64,000 bases of DNA from Aliikangiella coralliicola. GTDB taxonomy: Bacteria > Pseudomonadota > Gammaproteobacteria > Enterobacterales > Kangiellaceae. The notes below the pieces were generated by a model that made no database searches, was not told where the DNA came from, and was given only the letters and a program-made list of their open reading frames with translations. The position numbers and the translations under genes are program-made. How positions within the stretch are numbered: position 1 is the first letter of the stretch; each line of letters opens with the position of its first letter. The stretch is from positions 62,001 through 126,000 of the forward strand of contig NZ_ML660160.1 in the NCBI RefSeq assembly GCF_007004725.1. The letters run 5' to 3'. Positions 44,920 to 63,450 of the stretch are shown here, piece after piece.

Positions 44920-45167
44920 TCTTTTCTCAAATCATTCTTTAATATTATTGTTATTGAACTGCCGGCATTAAACTGAATGCGGTGGTGATTTCTAAAACTG
45001 ATTCGAAGTCACTTAACTTTTCTTTATTTTTATTGGGCGTTTTTAAATTTTCTTTTAATCAGGTCCCATGATTCACACTTTTTGTCCTGATATTAATACT
45101 GCCTGTTTTTTGTGTCATGTATCGTGACCGGTTCAAGCAACTGTCTAATAATGAAGAGGCAATACTG

Positions 45168-46283
45168 ATGTTAGAAAAGCTGATGTTTAAAAAGCTGATA
45201 TTAAAAAAACTGGTCATGCTTGGCACTTTAATGCTGAGTTCCTTAAATGCATATTCCGATCCACTCAAATCTGCAATTCTATATGTTGGCCCAACGAATG
45301 TGGCTTCCGCCGATCCTGGCGCTGTTGATGGATACAATTGGGTAAAATGGTCTAAAACTGATATTGATCGTTTTTCCGACAGCACTAACGGCTTTATTAT
45401 CATGCCGACTGGTGGACATGCTAACTCGTATGAGTATGCCAATTACAAGTACAACGCCTATAACCCTTGGCAGCCTAATAACACTTACTATAATTACTCT
45501 TTGTACATTAAAGATATTCGCAAGACTGTCCAGTCTATTTACGAAAGCCGAGGTACTAGTTCGTCAGTTTATATTTCGATGCCGAGGTATCGAAACCACT
45601 GGACCAACCCTTATTATCGATATTACAGCGACGCGCCGGTTCGAGACTTTATGGTTGACCTTAAAGCGAATGTTGACGCGGTCACTGGTGGTAATAGTGC
45701 GTTTTGGGATAATAGCGTGAAAGGATTTTATATTGTTGAAGAAACCTTTGACGGTTGTGTACAACTCAATACCTCGGGATTTTGTGTGAACAACGAAGGC
45801 TATGATGGGGATTTCAAGTATTTCCGCGACGTTCGTTCAAAACTCAACAACATTCATCCTGGAAAAGAGCTTATCTGGGCACCTCATTACGCGGTTGAAG
45901 GAGATAACTACCACGGTGGAGGTGATACAACACCTTATAAGAAGTTAAGTCAGACTTTAAAGTGGCAAAATATTAATGGAACCATCTTTGACCGAATTTT
46001 AATGCAGCCTGGTTATGCGAATGCTAAGCCTTGTTCTAATTGTTTTAGAATTATCGCGGATAGACTGAATACTCAATCGATTAATGGTGTACCTGCTGGA
46101 AACACTCGCCTTGGTGCTGTCATGGAATTGATCGATGGTAATGATGCTAATAATGAATATTACGCGCAACGCCTGCAATTTTACCGGCACAATACTGACT
46201 TTACTTTCTACTTTTCTGCCTGGAAAGGGACGATTGAGCCTTGGATCAACCCTTTTTACAATGGTGTGAAATACTACGAGTAA
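45168..46283 (+). CDS. Exported protein of unknown function, possible TIM-barrel glycosidase-like
   Basis: About 371 aa with a signal peptide (KKLILKKLVMLGTLMLSSLNAYS). The mature protein is rich in aromatic residues and Asn (YKYNAYNPWQPNNTYYNYSLY). Several blocks look like barrel strands: GFIIMPTGGHA, VYISMPRYRNHW, KGFYIVEETFDG, ELIWAPHYAVEGD, FDRILMQPGYA and TFYFSAWKGT. Order and content recall glycoside-hydrolase-like families such as DUF4434/DUF4855, but I cannot confirm it. Cys pairs (CVQLNTSGFC, CSNC) may form disulfides. The start at 45168 has AGAGG eight bases ahead; an ATG 17 codons earlier lacks that. A strong terminator follows. Confidence 0.75.
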   Translation: MLEKLMFKKLILKKLVMLGTLMLSSLNAYSDPLKSAILYVGPTNVASADPGAVDGYNWVKWSKTDIDRFSDSTNGFIIMPTGGHANSYEYANYKYNAYNPWQPNNTYYNYSLYIKDIRKTVQSIYESRGTSSSVYISMPRYRNHWTNPYYRYYSDAPVRDFMVDLKANVDAVTGGNSAFWDNSVKGFYIVEETFDGCVQLNTSGFCVNNEGYDGDFKYFRDVRSKLNNIHPGKELIWAPHYAVEGDNYHGGGDTTPYKKLSQTLKWQNINGTIFDRILMQPGYANAKPCSNCFRIIADRLNTQSINGVPAGNTRLGAVMELIDGNDANNEYYAQRLQFYRHNTDFTFYFSAWKGTIEPWINPFYNGVKYYE

Positions 46284-46607: not shown

Positions 46608-48725
46608 ATGGACGACACACAAGCGAAACCGCAGCAGTATCCAAATCGTTACCAGGTCGGCGACTTTATCGTCGATGTCAATGCTGCGAACGTCACCAAC
46701 AGAGAATCTGGGCAAAAGTGCCAACTTAAAGAAAAAGCTCTTAAAACTCTCTTGGTTTTTCTCGAAGAGCCTGATAAATATTTTTCCAATGAAATACTGA
46801 TTGAGCGTGTCTATGACAATGTTTCAGTTGGTACCAGCACGGTTGCGCAAAATATTAAGCAGTTGCGAGATGCTTTTGACGATAAAGATAAAAGCATTTT
46901 TAAGAATCGGTTAAAAGTAGGCTATCGATTGACGTTAGAGGTCTCTGAATATGATGCGCCTGTCCTGGATGAACCTGTTTCGGCTACGTCTGTCGTGGAC
47001 TCGCCGGAAGTATCGCCGCAGCAATTTCAGTGGAATAGCGTTTTGGCCGTGTTGTTTGTCGTAATTGTGGGAATAGTCTGGTTTCAAATGAGTAAGGAAT
47101 CTGAGGTTAATTCAGCCGCTGATCCGTTGCTCACACAAACTCCCTTAACTGCTTCTAAAGGGCAGGAGTATTTTCCCAGCTTGTCACATGATGGTCAGTG
47201 GCTACTCTTTAGTCATCGATACCAATCCCGTGGTTGGGCGTTGCGGATTAAGAATATGCAGACTGGTCGTAGTGAAGAGCTCTTATCTGGCGCAGATTAC
47301 AGTTATAAGCACGGCCAGATGACCAGAGATGGCCAACGAATTTTGTTTACTCGTTTGAGCTCGGGAAAGTGTGAATTAATGGAAGGGCATTTTGATAATG
47401 CGACGATTCAATTGACTAAGATTCGAACTTTGTATTCCTGTAGCGCCAACGCCGAAGGAGCGAGAATTGTAGAAGGTCACCATGCTGATCAGTATATTTT
47501 TTCAAACGGACCGGCTGTTGATGCACCCTATTCATTATTTGTTTTTTCAACGGTAACCGGTCGAACAGAGCAAATAACTGCACCGCCAACAACTGGCCAC
47601 GGCGATTATTTTATGAGTCTTTCGCCGGATCGATCAAAGTTAGCGTTTTTGCGCAACACGCAGAAGTATGTCACCGAAATTCGAATCTTTGATTTAGAAA
47701 AGCGAAACGATATTTTGCTTGAGAAGGTTAATAACACTTTGTTTACGGTTAACTGGTCATGGTCGGGTGATTCGTTGATCTATAAGAACAAATTGAATCA
47801 GGTGGTTTCTCTGGATATGAATAGCAGACAAAATAACGTCATTAAGCAAGCTCGGGGGCCAATCTACGCGCCCTTTGCGCTCGATGGTTCGAATGAGAGA
47901 ATCGGATTAATAGGTGGTAGTTTGGTTGACCATGATATTGTCTATCGAGATTTTGAGAGTCAAGACGAGAAAACGTTATTAGACAGTTCTTTTTCAGATA
48001 CGTTAGTGGTCTATTCGCCGAATAAAAACCGATTGGCCTGGGTATCAAACCGCAGTGGTCTTTATCAGCTCTGGCTAAAAGTGGGTGACGAGGTAGAAAA
48101 TGTTATTACCGCTATTCAGAGTAATGGCCGCTTCACCTCGCTGGATTTTAGTGCAGACGGTGAAAAGTTAGGCGGAACTTTCGAAGGGCGATGGTTTATT
48201 TACAATATCCGTGAGAATGAAATTGTCTGGAGTTCTGAATCTGAACATCGTTTTACTAATTTTGCCTGGCAACACGATGGTGAGTCGGCATATATTCTGG
48301 ACACTTATGCCCATGAGTCGGTGATGAAACTGTTGGATGTCGCAGAAGGCATTACAACGCGTTATTCTCGGTTTCCTGATGCCAACCTGGTTAAGGAGTC
48401 TCCCGATGGTCTCTGGCTTTTTGCCTGGTTTCAGGGGAGTCATCGTTTTATTCGGTTAAATCAGCAAACACAGGAGCTGCTGGAAATTAGCACGAGTAAT
48501 CAGACTGCACAAACCAATCACTGGGCTATTTCTAATCATCAAATCATCTGGGTAGATAAGCCTGCAGATGGTCCTTCTTTTCTAAAACGATTGCCGCATC
48601 AAGAATCTGTTTCATTACAAGTGAGTGATAAACCTTATTCTGGTTGGTTGACGGTATCGGGTAGTGAAACGGCGGTCATTTTGACTACTCGCTCTCGGGG
48701 CAACATAGAATTGATAGAAATTTAG
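46608..48725 (+). CDS. CadC-type membrane regulator with periplasmic TolB/PD40-like propeller (paralogue 1)
   Basis: A 705-aa protein. An N-terminal OmpR-type winged helix (about 14-112; LKEKALKTLLVFLEEPDKYFSNEILIERVYD, VAQNIKQLRDAFDD, KVGYRL) lies in the cytoplasm without a receiver domain. One membrane segment follows at about 145-165 (SVLAVLFVVIVGIVWF). The large C-terminal part is a beta-propeller (SLSHDGQWLLFSHR, SLSPDRSKLAFLR and similar strands). This is a ToxR/CadC-like one-component design with the sensor in the periplasm. Cys255 and Cys278 are separated by 22 residues, exactly as in the paralogue at 61363 (248 and 271). A small exported peptide gene with a C-x-P-x-P-x-C loop follows 108 bases downstream. 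Confidence 0.88.
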   Translation: MDDTQAKPQQYPNRYQVGDFIVDVNAANVTNRESGQKCQLKEKALKTLLVFLEEPDKYFSNEILIERVYDNVSVGTSTVAQNIKQLRDAFDDKDKSIFKNRLKVGYRLTLEVSEYDAPVLDEPVSATSVVDSPEVSPQQFQWNSVLAVLFVVIVGIVWFQMSKESEVNSAADPLLTQTPLTASKGQEYFPSLSHDGQWLLFSHRYQSRGWALRIKNMQTGRSEELLSGADYSYKHGQMTRDGQRILFTRLSSGKCELMEGHFDNATIQLTKIRTLYSCSANAEGARIVEGHHADQYIFSNGPAVDAPYSLFVFSTVTGRTEQITAPPTTGHGDYFMSLSPDRSKLAFLRNTQKYVTEIRIFDLEKRNDILLEKVNNTLFTVNWSWSGDSLIYKNKLNQVVSLDMNSRQNNVIKQARGPIYAPFALDGSNERIGLIGGSLVDHDIVYRDFESQDEKTLLDSSFSDTLVVYSPNKNRLAWVSNRSGLYQLWLKVGDEVENVITAIQSNGRFTSLDFSADGEKLGGTFEGRWFIYNIRENEIVWSSESEHRFTNFAWQHDGESAYILDTYAHESVMKLLDVAEGITTRYSRFPDANLVKESPDGLWLFAWFQGSHRFIRLNQQTQELLEISTSNQTAQTNHWAISNHQIIWVDKPADGPSFLKRLPHQESVSLQVSDKPYSGWLTVSGSETAVILTTRSRGNIELIEI

Positions 48726-48833
48726 CGTGATCAACAAATTTTCATAACTTCTTCAACACTTTTTCAAAACTTAATAGATAAATTTCAATAGCTTACATCT
48801 GTCATTAGCAAATGCGATAAGGCGGGTGTGATC

Positions 48834-49001
48834 ATGAGTTATATTAAGTTGTTAACAGTTTTCATCGCTTTTATGTCGGCTTTTATCGAAGAACCTTCTT
48901 CGGTGACTACAGAAGCGGCTCCCTTAAAAAAAGTTTATAACACTTCGTGCGAGCCTTTTCCTGAGTGTGAAATTGAGGCATATGAAACTCAGGGAGGGTA
49001 A
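48834..49001 (+). CDS. Small exported peptide with CxPxPxC loop, 55 aa
   Basis: A short ORF with a hydrophobic N-terminal stretch (YIKLLTVFIAFMSAFI) typical of a signal peptide or anchor. A polar part carries CEPFPEC and an acidic end (EIEAYETQGG). A purine-rich GGCGGGTGTG lies before the ATG. Its only cysteines are those of the loop, so an intramolecular disulfide in the periplasm is likely. The peptide at 61018-61290, next to the paralogous regulator, has the matching loop CRPIPDC. Position after the regulator at 46608 and the shared motif make a real gene likely despite its length. Confidence 0.65.
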   Translation: MSYIKLLTVFIAFMSAFIEEPSSVTTEAAPLKKVYNTSCEPFPECEIEAYETQGG

Positions 49002-49039
49002 GTTTTTGAGTCATTCAGTCATTCTTTTGGAAATTGGAT

Positions 49040-49261
49040 ATGCCGTCTAAACCTTATTTATTGAATAAGCGACCTCAAAATGGTGGTGAGCATGAAGTAC
49101 ATAGTTTGTATGAGTGTGAGCATTTGCCAAATATTGAGTTTCGAATTCCGCTGGGTTCATTTCAAAATTGTATCGAGGCCGTGAGTGCGGCGAAGCAGAA
49201 GTTTCCCGGCCATGTGATTGATGGTTGTAAATTTTGCTCTCCGCAATGTCATACGCGTTAG
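49040..49261 (+). CDS. Small Cys/His-rich protein, 73 aa
   Basis: A 73-aa soluble protein with the pattern GEHEVHSLYECEHLP, LGSFQNCIEAVSAAKQKFPG and DGCKFCSPQCHTR. It matches a widespread family of small bacterial proteins (EVH-x-C-x-x-LP, then a CxxC and a Cys-His end) that probably bind zinc through the Cys and His residues. The family is frequent in accessory regions and cassette arrays and has no known function. The ATG at 49040 follows GGAAATTGGAT; a TTG two codons earlier is in frame. Confidence 0.75.
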   Translation: MPSKPYLLNKRPQNGGEHEVHSLYECEHLPNIEFRIPLGSFQNCIEAVSAAKQKFPGHVIDGCKFCSPQCHTR

Positions 49262-49365
49262 TTTGGACTGGTTTGGTGGGTTAGTTTGGTGAAAGTGAGA
49301 TTGTAATTAAGTGAAAGCCGGTGGTTGTTTAGCGAGCGGCATTGGATATTGATGGGAACTCCGTT

Positions 49366-49656
49366 ATGAAGAAATGGTTTGTTCTTGCTGCTTTGGGTGT
49401 TGTTGTTTTAATCATTCAAGTTGATGCAAAGGAGCCGTTATCTGATAAGGAAGTCACGAACATTTTAATTAAGCAATCGATCCGAAATTATTCGGGTAAT
49501 TGCCCTTGTCCTTACAATCGGGATAGAGCGGGAAGGCGTTGTGGAAAAAGGAGCGCTTGGAGTAAACCGGGTGGGGCGTCTCCGCTTTGTTTTGCTTCGG
49601 ATGTGACTAAGGAGATGATAGGGGAGTTTCGTCGGGGGACTAAGTCTTCAAAATAA
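49366..49656 (+). CDS. Small Cys-rich exported protein, CPCPY family
   Basis: 96 aa with an N-terminal hydrophobic segment (KKWFVLAALGVVVLIIQVDA) that looks like a signal peptide. The mature part has GNCPCPYNRDRAGRRCGKRSAW followed by KPGGASPLCF, a recognisable motif of a widespread small-protein family seen in mobile regions. Four conserved cysteines suggest two disulfides or a metal site. The start chosen is the ATG at 49366; the TTG eight codons earlier is less likely. Function unknown. Confidence 0.75.
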   Translation: MKKWFVLAALGVVVLIIQVDAKEPLSDKEVTNILIKQSIRNYSGNCPCPYNRDRAGRRCGKRSAWSKPGGASPLCFASDVTKEMIGEFRRGTKSSK

Positions 49657-59921: not shown

Positions 59922-60119
59922 TCATATTTTCTCAGCATGTTTTTCAAGCAACTTTTTTTCATTCTTTATTTTTTGATAGATTTCCTCTCGAAAAACAGGA
60001 ATATTTTTAGGTGATTTTATACCAAGACTCACCTTAAGATCATCCACTGCTAAGACAGTCACAGTTATGTTATCAGAAATCACTATTTTTTCATTGATTT
60101 GACGGGTTAAAACTAACAT
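59922..60119 (-). CDS. csrA: CsrA-family RNA-binding regulator, paralogue
   Basis: 65 aa, the normal size. The RNA-binding residues at both ends of the dimer are kept: MLVLTRQINEKIVI (Leu4 and Arg6) and VFREEIYQKIKNEK with Arg44. The canonical VHREE reads VFREE, and the middle (VDDLKVSLGIKSPKNIPV) is diverged from housekeeping CsrA. CsrA dimers bind GGA motifs in mRNA leaders and change translation. It sits among small unknown genes in an island, so it is probably an accessory copy, as found on mobile elements in other gammaproteobacteria. Confidence 0.9.
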   Translation of the reverse strand: MLVLTRQINEKIVISDNITVTVLAVDDLKVSLGIKSPKNIPVFREEIYQKIKNEKKLLEKHAEKI

Positions 60120-61017: not shown

Positions 61018-61290
61018 TTATTGTTTTTGTTTTGGCTCATTGTCGCTTTCCGAGTTCCCATTTAATAACTCTAACCATTTAAGCCATTCAGAACGAGCAG
61101 CTTGAGAACTGGTTTGGTCACTGTTTCCTCCACAGTCAGGGATTGGCCGACAAGGGGCATAATAATTATCTCCTGATGTTGGCTGTTCTAGCTGATAAGC
61201 TTGCTCAGGCTCATTTTTTTCTTCAGCCCATGAAAACTGAATACCTGTTAATGAGATAAAAATAAAAATTAATCGAATGGATTGTTTCAC
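61018..61290 (-). CDS. Small exported peptide with CxPxPxC loop, 90 aa
   Basis: 90 aa with a signal peptide (QSIRLIFIFISLTGIQFSWAEEK, cleaved after SWA). The mature part is acidic and polar, with the only two cysteines in CRPIPDC near residues 47-53. The end is Glu/Asn/Lys-rich. The start is a GTG at 61290 supported by GGAGCAACA. It is divergent from the membrane regulator at 61363. The matching loop CEPFPEC in the peptide at 48834, beside the paralogous regulator, argues that these peptides belong with the regulators. Confidence 0.7.
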   Translation of the reverse strand: MKQSIRLIFIFISLTGIQFSWAEEKNEPEQAYQLEQPTSGDNYYAPCRPIPDCGGNSDQTSSQAARSEWLKWLELLNGNSESDNEPKQKQ

Positions 61291-61362: not shown

Positions 61363-63450
61363 ATGCTGAATTTATTGAAAAATCCCGGCATTGAAAAAGT
61401 TGATAAAAAGAGGATCTATTATTTTGAGTTTGAAGGATGCCATTACTACCCCAAAACCGCGAAGCTAGTCGTTGATGGATCGGAATTTTTTCTGAGCAAG
61501 TACGAAAGGGAAATTCTTGAATTATTAATCAGCAGACCTGGCGAACAAATATCCAGACAGGAGATTATTGATCTTATTTGGGGAGATAAACCGTGCGCTC
61601 CTAAAACTTTTGGGAAACATATTGACCAACTGCGTGATTACCTCGGTGACAGAGGTTTAGATAAAGACTCGCAAAAGATTCAGACAATCACGCGCGGCTA
61701 CTTGATTTTTAAACCCACAGTGACTCCACATTATCATGGTCTTGCACCATCTCTACGCTTACTGATTAAAGGTAGTGTAGCATCATGCTTGCTTACTGGC
61801 TTTTTAATCATTGGGGTGTCAGACGCATTTAAGTCAGAAACTTTTGAGGCGATTGAGCCTAAATTACTGACCAGTTGGAAAGCTGGCTCTAAAAGACCTG
61901 TAGTGTCACCTGACGGTAAAGTCATTATCTATTCGCGTCAGTCTAAAGATAGCACCACCTGGGATCTGTTAGTCACGAAACGACATTCCAAAACTCACAA
62001 GTGGCTGACCCATGAAACACTCCCGCATACACAAAATACCGAACCCAGTTTTTCGCCATCTGGTAAGCAGATTGTGTGGGTTCGTTCCGACCATAAAACC
62101 TTTTGCGAAGTCATCACCATGAATTTTGATACAATCTCGCTAAAAACCAGCGATAAAAAGATTGTCTATCAATGTATGCCTTCGCAACTTATTCGTACAC
62201 CTCAATGGTATTCTGATTCTAGCTTGTTGTTATCATCAAGTCTCTCAAGTCAGCCTTACGGTATTATTAAGCTAAACCTTTGGACAAAAGAGTACACACA
62301 AATTACTCAACCCAAAGACACAATTTATGGTGATTATAGTATTTTTTACCACCCTGAAAGCCAACGGGCCGCTTTTTTCCGACAGTCAACAAGTACGGGA
62401 ACCGAACTCAGAGTTTATGATTTTACAACACAAACTGACAGGTTAATCAGAACCTATGATCACTGGCTTTATTCTATTTCATGGAGGAACGCCGATCAGC
62501 TTGTAGCTCAATCTGATAATAGTTACGAGGTTATTAATATTGCCAATGGTAGTGTAAAAAGTGTACCGATCTCCTTTCAAGAGGCCGAGCCACTGCAATA
62601 CCCGGTGTTAGTTGATGAGCATACCATTATTTTTGTCCGTGGCCCGCTAAGGGACAGGGAAGTTATCATGCATAAGCTCAATGACGACTCGACCGAACAG
62701 GTATTGACTACGTTGTTTGACGAACATCAAGGCGTTGTGGTTAAAGGGAAAAATAACAGCATTGTTTTTTCGCTCGTAGAAAATCTTAAGCATCATCTTT
62801 ATCATATGATTGACAATGAAGTGACGCCCTTTGCAGAACTTCCTAGACATAGCTTGGTATTAGATATGGCTGTCTCGCCTAATGGTGAGTTAATTGCCTA
62901 TCTTTTAGGCAACACACTTTTTATTAAAAATCGTCAAGGAGAGACACTTCATAGTCAGCCGCTAACATCAACCGGTTTTGCTTTTAGTCCTGATAGCCAG
63001 TATTTATTCATTGGACGGAGAACTGAGCAAGAAACGAATATATTGAGCTTATCAGTTCAAGAAGATTTCGAACCTAAGAATGTCACCACTGGAATTTTAC
63101 CTAAAGTTACTCAAGACGGAACGCTCTATTTTTTACGCAAAATTAGTGATCAAGACTGGCTTTTTCGACAAACTGACACTGGCGTAGAAAAAGTTATTAA
63201 GGCTCCATTTTCAACTACCATAACCCACTCAAACACTTTTGATGTGATAGACCATTCATTATTTTATATTGAGAGCGAAAACTTGACCCGACTTGATTTA
63301 AACAACGGTGAAAAAGTAGTCATTAAAAAAATTAAAGGCAATCATTTCTCAATGAATTACGCGCAAGACTTTATGGTGTCAGTCCACGCTGTAACTGCAC
63401 AAAATAATTTGATTGAGTTTAAGTTAAAGCACAGCGACGATCCTGAGTAG
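61363..63450 (+). CDS. CadC-type membrane regulator with periplasmic propeller (paralogue 2)
   Basis: About 695 aa. A winged helix of OmpR type in the cytoplasm (about 20-115; LSKYEREILELLISRPGEQISRQEIIDLIWGD, FGKHIDQLRDYLGDRG, ITRGYLIF), one membrane segment (about 130-152, GSVASCLLTGFLIIGV), and a large periplasmic beta-propeller (VSPDGKVIIYSRQ, FSPSGKQIVWVRSD). Cys248 and Cys271 are spaced as in the paralogue at 46608. The ORF is open 27 codons further upstream from a TTG, but homology and an ATG at 61363 fix the start here. It is divergent from the CxPxPxC peptide gene. No receiver domain, so sensing is direct. Confidence 0.87.
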   Translation: MLNLLKNPGIEKVDKKRIYYFEFEGCHYYPKTAKLVVDGSEFFLSKYEREILELLISRPGEQISRQEIIDLIWGDKPCAPKTFGKHIDQLRDYLGDRGLDKDSQKIQTITRGYLIFKPTVTPHYHGLAPSLRLLIKGSVASCLLTGFLIIGVSDAFKSETFEAIEPKLLTSWKAGSKRPVVSPDGKVIIYSRQSKDSTTWDLLVTKRHSKTHKWLTHETLPHTQNTEPSFSPSGKQIVWVRSDHKTFCEVITMNFDTISLKTSDKKIVYQCMPSQLIRTPQWYSDSSLLLSSSLSSQPYGIIKLNLWTKEYTQITQPKDTIYGDYSIFYHPESQRAAFFRQSTSTGTELRVYDFTTQTDRLIRTYDHWLYSISWRNADQLVAQSDNSYEVINIANGSVKSVPISFQEAEPLQYPVLVDEHTIIFVRGPLRDREVIMHKLNDDSTEQVLTTLFDEHQGVVVKGKNNSIVFSLVENLKHHLYHMIDNEVTPFAELPRHSLVLDMAVSPNGELIAYLLGNTLFIKNRQGETLHSQPLTSTGFAFSPDSQYLFIGRRTEQETNILSLSVQEDFEPKNVTTGILPKVTQDGTLYFLRKISDQDWLFRQTDTGVEKVIKAPFSTTITHSNTFDVIDHSLFYIESENLTRLDLNNGEKVVIKKIKGNHFSMNYAQDFMVSVHAVTAQNNLIEFKLKHSDDPE

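Follow-up and report, generated by a model that had tools for sequence, protein, structure and literature searches.

A propeller-type membrane regulator and an exported cysteine-loop peptide recur as a gene pair in Aliikangiella coralliicola and its relatives

What might a small exported peptide do beside a membrane-bound regulator, and is such a neighbourhood more than an accident? The question is raised twice by the window, that is, the whole 64-kb stretch of DNA analysed here (64,000 nucleotides, positions 62,001 to 126,000 of contig NZ_ML660160.1) from the 7.04-Mb genome of Aliikangiella coralliicola. At copy 1 a regulator with a propeller-type sensor is followed, as the original prediction held and the open reading frames (ORFs) at 46608-48725 and 48834-49001 confirm, by an exported peptide of 55 amino acids (aa) with just two cysteines, both within CEPFPEC. 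A second pair, with CRPIPDC, had been announced at 61 kb; it is indeed present, but its peptide gene lies divergently on the other strand and not downstream. The two pairs consist of the following features.

46608..48725, plus strand: copy 1 regulator, 705 aa, with a winged helix-turn-helix (wHTH) domain, one transmembrane helix and two tandem periplasmic propellers (ORF, Pfam, AlphaFold2 prediction)
46710..46931, plus strand: winged-helix DNA-binding domain, PF00486, residues 35-108 (Pfam)
47031..47108, plus strand: predicted transmembrane helix, residues 142-167 (AlphaFold2 helix; hydrophobicity judged by eye)
47148..47987, plus strand: propeller 1, about residues 181-460, TolB-like, six-bladed by strand count (AlphaFold2, structural match)
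47988..48722, plus strand: propeller 2, about residues 461-705 (AlphaFold2)
48738..48770, plus strand: three 11-bp direct repeats with TTCA in each, a candidate regulator site 5' of the peptide gene
48834..49001, plus strand: copy 1 exported peptide, 55 aa, ATG at 48834
48948..48968, plus strand: CEPFPEC loop of the copy 1 peptide
about 61363..63450, plus strand: copy 2 regulator, ORF open from 61282, with ATG 61363 matching the start of its paralogue in locus L094
61018..61290, minus strand: copy 2 exported peptide, 90 aa, divergent from the regulator
61132..61152, minus strand: CRPIPDC loop of the copy 2 peptide

It is almost certain that these genes represent a conserved two-gene module, a propeller regulator with an exported cysteine-loop peptide, and this part of the original prediction is strongly supported both by the clustering of loop ORFs near regulators and by the presence of a peptide beside 33 of the 38 regulators of one clade. 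The window contains two instances of CxPxPxC where 0.13 would be expected. The whole genome has 25, compared with 19 of the reversed control pattern, and six of the 25 lie in small exported ORFs adjoining a propeller regulator; the other 19 are all more than 1.5 kb from any regulator, and two of these meet loose criteria for a small exported ORF. A scan of 35 regulator genes in the same genome yielded seven pairs, the seventh with the looser loop CPNYPHC. Among relatives, matches to CxP[YF]PxC (40 genomes of the family) and homologues of copy 1 (61 genomes) repeatedly coincide; the loci of 40 of the 43 motif matches outside the own genome and of all 63 regulator matches were fetched. Homologous loci are found in Aliikangiella sp. 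G2MR2-5, Pleionea mediterranea DSM 25350, a Kangiellaceae metagenome-assembled genome (MAG) and three Gammaproteobacteria MAGs, among others. A contig search with the copy 1 sequence alone returned no relative, and one with an alignment as query returned six loci. The pairing recurs in related genomes, where the original prediction had advised a search, though the motif CxPxPxC proved too narrow, its first proline being optional.

After inspection of the first peptides, we widened the loop pattern to a cysteine, two to six residues, a hydrophobic, aromatic or histidine residue, a proline, one or two residues and a cysteine, behind a hydrophobic N-terminus, and applied the identical pattern near and far from regulators. 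It marked 37 ORFs no more than 600 bp from a regulator and, in the rest of these loci, a single one (an earlier version of the scan gave 36 near ones in 143 kb and one far in 778 kb). One of the 37, CWWLLIPRTC in L236, is likely false, and the lone distant one, in L203, is clearly related to the peptide of copy 1. In a quick tree of 75 regulators (SH-aLRT support, midpoint root), nearly all peptide-bearing regulators fall in one branch of 37 (support 98); three regulators were joined later by best BLAST match, and subclades A, B and C together then number 38. Regulators with a hidden Markov model score below 200 stand outside the resulting 78-row table, and those of the own genome among them were included in the 35-gene scan. 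A peptide lies within 600 bp of 33 of the 38 clade regulators (32 found by script, and L207, with CKPYPEC, by reading), and for two members without one, L288 and L106, the contig ends on the expected side. The 40 other regulators include three with a peptide, and all three belong to subclade D, which forms its own branch of eight (support 97; nine with L289) and is not the sister group. Here the peptide gene lies beyond the 3' end of the regulator gene, on the opposite strand, and three further D members (L249, L250, L252) carry a C-RLF-xx-[FW]-C peptide in the same place, judged by eye and outside the counts. None of the remaining 31 regulators, outside the clade and D, has a peptide (L290 duplicates L244). 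Subclades A and B carry the peptide gene downstream of the regulator in the same orientation, and C carries it upstream and divergent; L224 holds three regulator-peptide cassettes in tandem, and L220 two peptides behind a single regulator. On the window excess, the regulator-adjacent clustering of loop ORFs and the clade distribution, we reject a chance motif.

The peptides of the module are about 45-100 aa long and have one cysteine pair, usually in the form C-x-x-[aromatic]-P-x-C. The loop C-x-x-[W/Y/F/I/H/M/A]-P-x-C fits 28 of the 32 clade peptides found by script, and the three peptides of L224 have longer loops. In an alignment of 25 peptides, outside which those of L219-L225 stand, C-xxx-P-x-C is common to all and little else is, both cysteines being invariant. 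The ratio of nonsynonymous to synonymous substitution rates (dN/dS) is 0.38 for the copy 2 peptide against its paralogue; three other pairs, with a synonymous rate (dS) above 2, give 0.08, 0.24 and 0.29, and two more pairs, including copy 1 and its counterpart in L207, are saturated at silent sites. Because of these values, the peptide ORFs are very likely real genes. Conservation of the peptide ORF, on which the original prediction had staked itself, holds good, since the ORF is retained in relatives and all four measurable pairs show purifying selection. The two window peptides match no family in Pfam (E up to 1) or NCBIfam (E up to 0.1), and the N-termini of the B and C peptides resemble Sec signals by eye.

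On the regulator side, Pfam finds PF00486 (E 3.8e-9) and PD40 (E 4.1e-13) in copy 1, and the PF00486 scores of 36.9 bits (copy 1) and 40.9 bits (copy 2) exceed the cut-off of 26.2, as for an OmpR/PhoB-type winged helix. The AlphaFold2 prediction places one helix (142-167) between the wHTH domain and the propellers, which is a ToxR/CadC-like layout. A TolB-like fold is confidently predicted for propeller 1, whose best structural matches are TolB entries, some with bound colicin TolB-box peptides; residues 174-428 align to the TolB propeller, with no TolB N-terminal domain seen in the match. With the TolB family model TIGR02800, the regulators score 47.4 bits (copy 1) and 31.1 bits (copy 2) and so fall below its cut-off of 343.15. 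Fourteen residues are conserved within the paired clade and not outside it; all of them map to propeller 1 and none to the DNA-binding domain. Positions at least 80% conserved in the clade number 24 in propeller 1, three in propeller 2 and five in the rest (residue faces of the propellers were reasoned from the predicted strand list).

Direct repeats of 11 bp, TTCATAAC, TTCAACAC and TTCAAAAC, lie between the copy 1 regulator and its peptide. Repeats of about 11 bp suit winged helices of the OmpR/PhoB type, and it is plausible from the sequence that these are the site of the copy 1 regulator. Across 26 regulator-peptide regions from subclades A and B, two TCA stand 11 bp apart in 11 cases (2.4 after shuffling) and 22 bp apart in 10 (2.0 after shuffling), and three TCA in a row occur in four of the regions (0.06 on average after shuffling, at most 1; none on the reverse strand). 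A genome-wide search for exact double repeats of the copy 1 type gave two sites, one in the window and one at G000:C1:336037-336067. When one mismatch was permitted, 13 matches were obtained, and 14 for the reversed control; as these are no better than the control, only the exact triple is noteworthy. The 336-kb place (L276, L287) holds the sole other exact triple of the copy 1 repeat in the genome, and the long ORF nearest to it, for a large leucine-rich-repeat protein, starts about 730 bp on.

What, then, would the peptide do? We give about an even chance to the reading, drawn from sequence, that it is the dedicated periplasmic ligand of its own propeller regulator within a feedback loop. 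The product of the small gene would be exported, and a disulfide between its two cysteines would most likely form a loop, seven residues long in copy 1, that displays an aromatic-proline turn. This loop, or the peptide bearing it, would bind propeller 1 of its own regulator, and binding would alter the action of the cytoplasmic winged helix at the 11-bp repeats before the peptide gene; in the divergent copies, the regulator would also act before gene runs for exported proteins. The direction of this control, and the feedback of the peptide level on the circuit, we infer. The pairing, the clade, the selection on the peptide and the copy 1 repeats are the elements of the scheme seen directly in the genomes. 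That the peptide is sensed via the propeller, as first suggested, is plausible from the clade-specific residues in the TolB-like propeller, whereas a tethered co-fold showed no docking.

In that fold, the copy 1 regulator and peptide, which share a reading frame, were folded by AlphaFold2 as a single chain with stops read as glycine. This co-folding, which the original prediction had named as a check, left the peptide unplaced past its hydrophobic helix, with a predicted local distance difference test score below 50, and gave docking no support. Only six alignment rows spanned the peptide, and the AlphaFold2 monomer often misses such peptides, so the result weakens docking without refuting it. 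It is one of several points that weigh against the ligand reading. Propeller 1 is the best conserved part anyway, and any clade carries residues of its own. Three of the four triple-TCA regions come from a single tandem array (L224), the regions being partly related; triple TCA also occurs in two of 35 regions after peptide-less regulators, and these regions show eight TCA pairs at 11 bp, their top count among the tabulated distances. No peptide was found at three clade members (L105, L234, L251), and an orphan peptide at L203:3925-4059 (CKPFPECEIE) has an M1 peptidase gene adjacent and no regulator beside it. Export in subclade A is judged from short hydrophobic N-termini with little positive charge, which are less typical, and dS exceeds 2 in three of the four dN/dS pairs.

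The chief rival of the ligand reading is that the peptide is no more than the principal target of the regulator and acts elsewhere (the outer membrane, the surface or another cell), while the propeller senses something else. This is possible though somewhat improbable. It agrees with the place of peptide genes, that of copy 1 and certain others, directly after candidate operators, with the tethered fold, and with four subclade C loci in which same-strand runs behind the peptide reach RHS-repeat proteins (L189, L239) or PKD/reprolysin-like proteins (L107, L108). However, the pairing persists though the position and strand of the peptide gene vary between A/B and C, and the clade-specific residues lie in the sensor and not in the DNA-binding domain. 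The loop sequences vary among paralogous cassettes and lineages as private signals do, which would suit a released pheromone read by the propeller of neighbouring cells. Such signalling is nevertheless unlikely, as a Sec-exported peptide would be expected to remain periplasmic barring leak or transport, and no exporter, processing, ribosomally synthesised and post-translationally modified peptide (RiPP), secretion or Dsb-like gene was recognised among the neighbour families present in at least three loci (by eye; part scanned, most not). The absence of a recognised Dsb-like gene there also speaks against a pair that reports periplasmic oxidation, with a loop active only once its disulfide has formed. 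This last idea, offered in the original prediction, is very unlikely and gained no specific support: all 25 aligned peptides retain the two cysteines, but the regulator pair C255/C278 is not clade-specific, being kept in 29 of 30 regulators outside both the paired clade and subclade D. As C255/C278 is general to these regulators, we reject a redox pairing of peptide and regulator cysteines. Of the 11 subclade B regulators, 10 have an additional pair of cysteines within propeller 2, at the positions aligned with copy 1 residues 598 and 603.

Known systems resemble the pair in part. ToxS is a folded protein with its gene at the side of its regulator's. ToxR and CadC share with our regulators the PF00486 winged helix, one membrane helix and a periplasmic sensor, whereas here the sensor is a tandem double propeller and the gene alongside encodes a peptide of about 45-100 aa with a single cysteine loop, which is probably not folded as ToxS is. 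As to a possible partner of the ToxS/TcpH/VtrC type, the copy 1 peptide is unfolded beyond its helix in the model, and the two window peptides lack a Pfam or NCBIfam match. ToxR depends on its partner ToxS (PMC8359183). TolB, which binds the colicin TolB box or Pal, has a six-bladed propeller in common with propeller 1, and PMC2821528 describes short hairpin or ring-like epitopes that bind the TolB canyon, with Trp needed in the ColE9 epitope. Our regulator, in contrast, matches without the TolB N-terminal domain and far under the family cut-off, and its peptide is encoded alongside. The double propellers of LRP6 with disulfide-constrained peptides (8dvm, 8dvn) are an analogy of form only, as LRP6 is an animal receptor and, at a root-mean-square deviation of 18.5, the two propellers do not superpose together. 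Agr and Rap-Phr are peptide pheromone-receptor pairs of Gram-positives and likewise adjacent gene pairs that diversify together, whereas here the bacteria are Gram-negative, the receptor is a membrane-bound transcription factor and no processing or export genes were recognised.

To our knowledge, envelope peptide signals of Gram-negatives read directly by a one-component regulator are hardly known, and narrow phrase searches of open-access PMC text found no description of such a regulator-peptide pair. Our results suggest a peptide-and-sensor system without earlier description in a family of marine bacteria. More tentative, and on balance doubtful, is the reading that Gram-negatives possess a family of peptide signals, gene-encoded and looped by a disulfide, of which each is read directly by a membrane-bound transcription factor of its own via a TolB-like propeller, and which have multiplied and diversified as peptide-receptor cassettes within single genomes. 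Receptor, candidate ligand, candidate binding domain and candidate operator are all contained in 2.4 kb, and the pair is found many times over, so that the idea is testable in one strain. From the gene order in subclade C, the module may also control large exported proteins. Moreover, short peptide genes without a database family can be found via a fixed partner gene.

The genes around the two pairs are as follows.

49034..49261, plus strand: 75-aa cysteine-rich small protein, next after the copy 1 peptide
49342..49656, plus strand: 104-aa exported protein (NCPCPYN), in the same gene order at the ortholog locus L207
58600..60684, minus strand: gene run behind the copy 2 peptide on its strand, encoding 77 aa, 85 aa, a CsrA homologue (59922-60119) and a 392-aa exported protein

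Upstream of copy 1, a 388-aa exported protein (45117-46283) has no Pfam match. Most of the copy 2 cassette has a paralogue at L094:8494-13147 (G000:C1, about 360-365 kb), with a 389-aa exported protein, 85 aa, 77 aa, peptide and regulator, and no homologue of the copy 2 CsrA in the L094 ORF list. A RiPP or secretion cluster was considered and rejected, none being recognised by eye in the recurring neighbour families, part of which were also scanned. These families mostly resemble conserved gene order, together with the 75-aa cysteine-rich protein and a HigB/HTH-like pair. The 75-aa family (GEHEVH...C), without a Pfam match in the two members scanned, stands behind several regulator-peptide pairs (L183, L187 twice, L207, L247). 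The pair of a HigB-like gene (below the Pfam cut-off) and an HTH gene, perhaps a toxin-antitoxin system, lies near subclade B regulators in seven loci (L084:6700-7383, L196, L197, L200, L230, L231 and L233).
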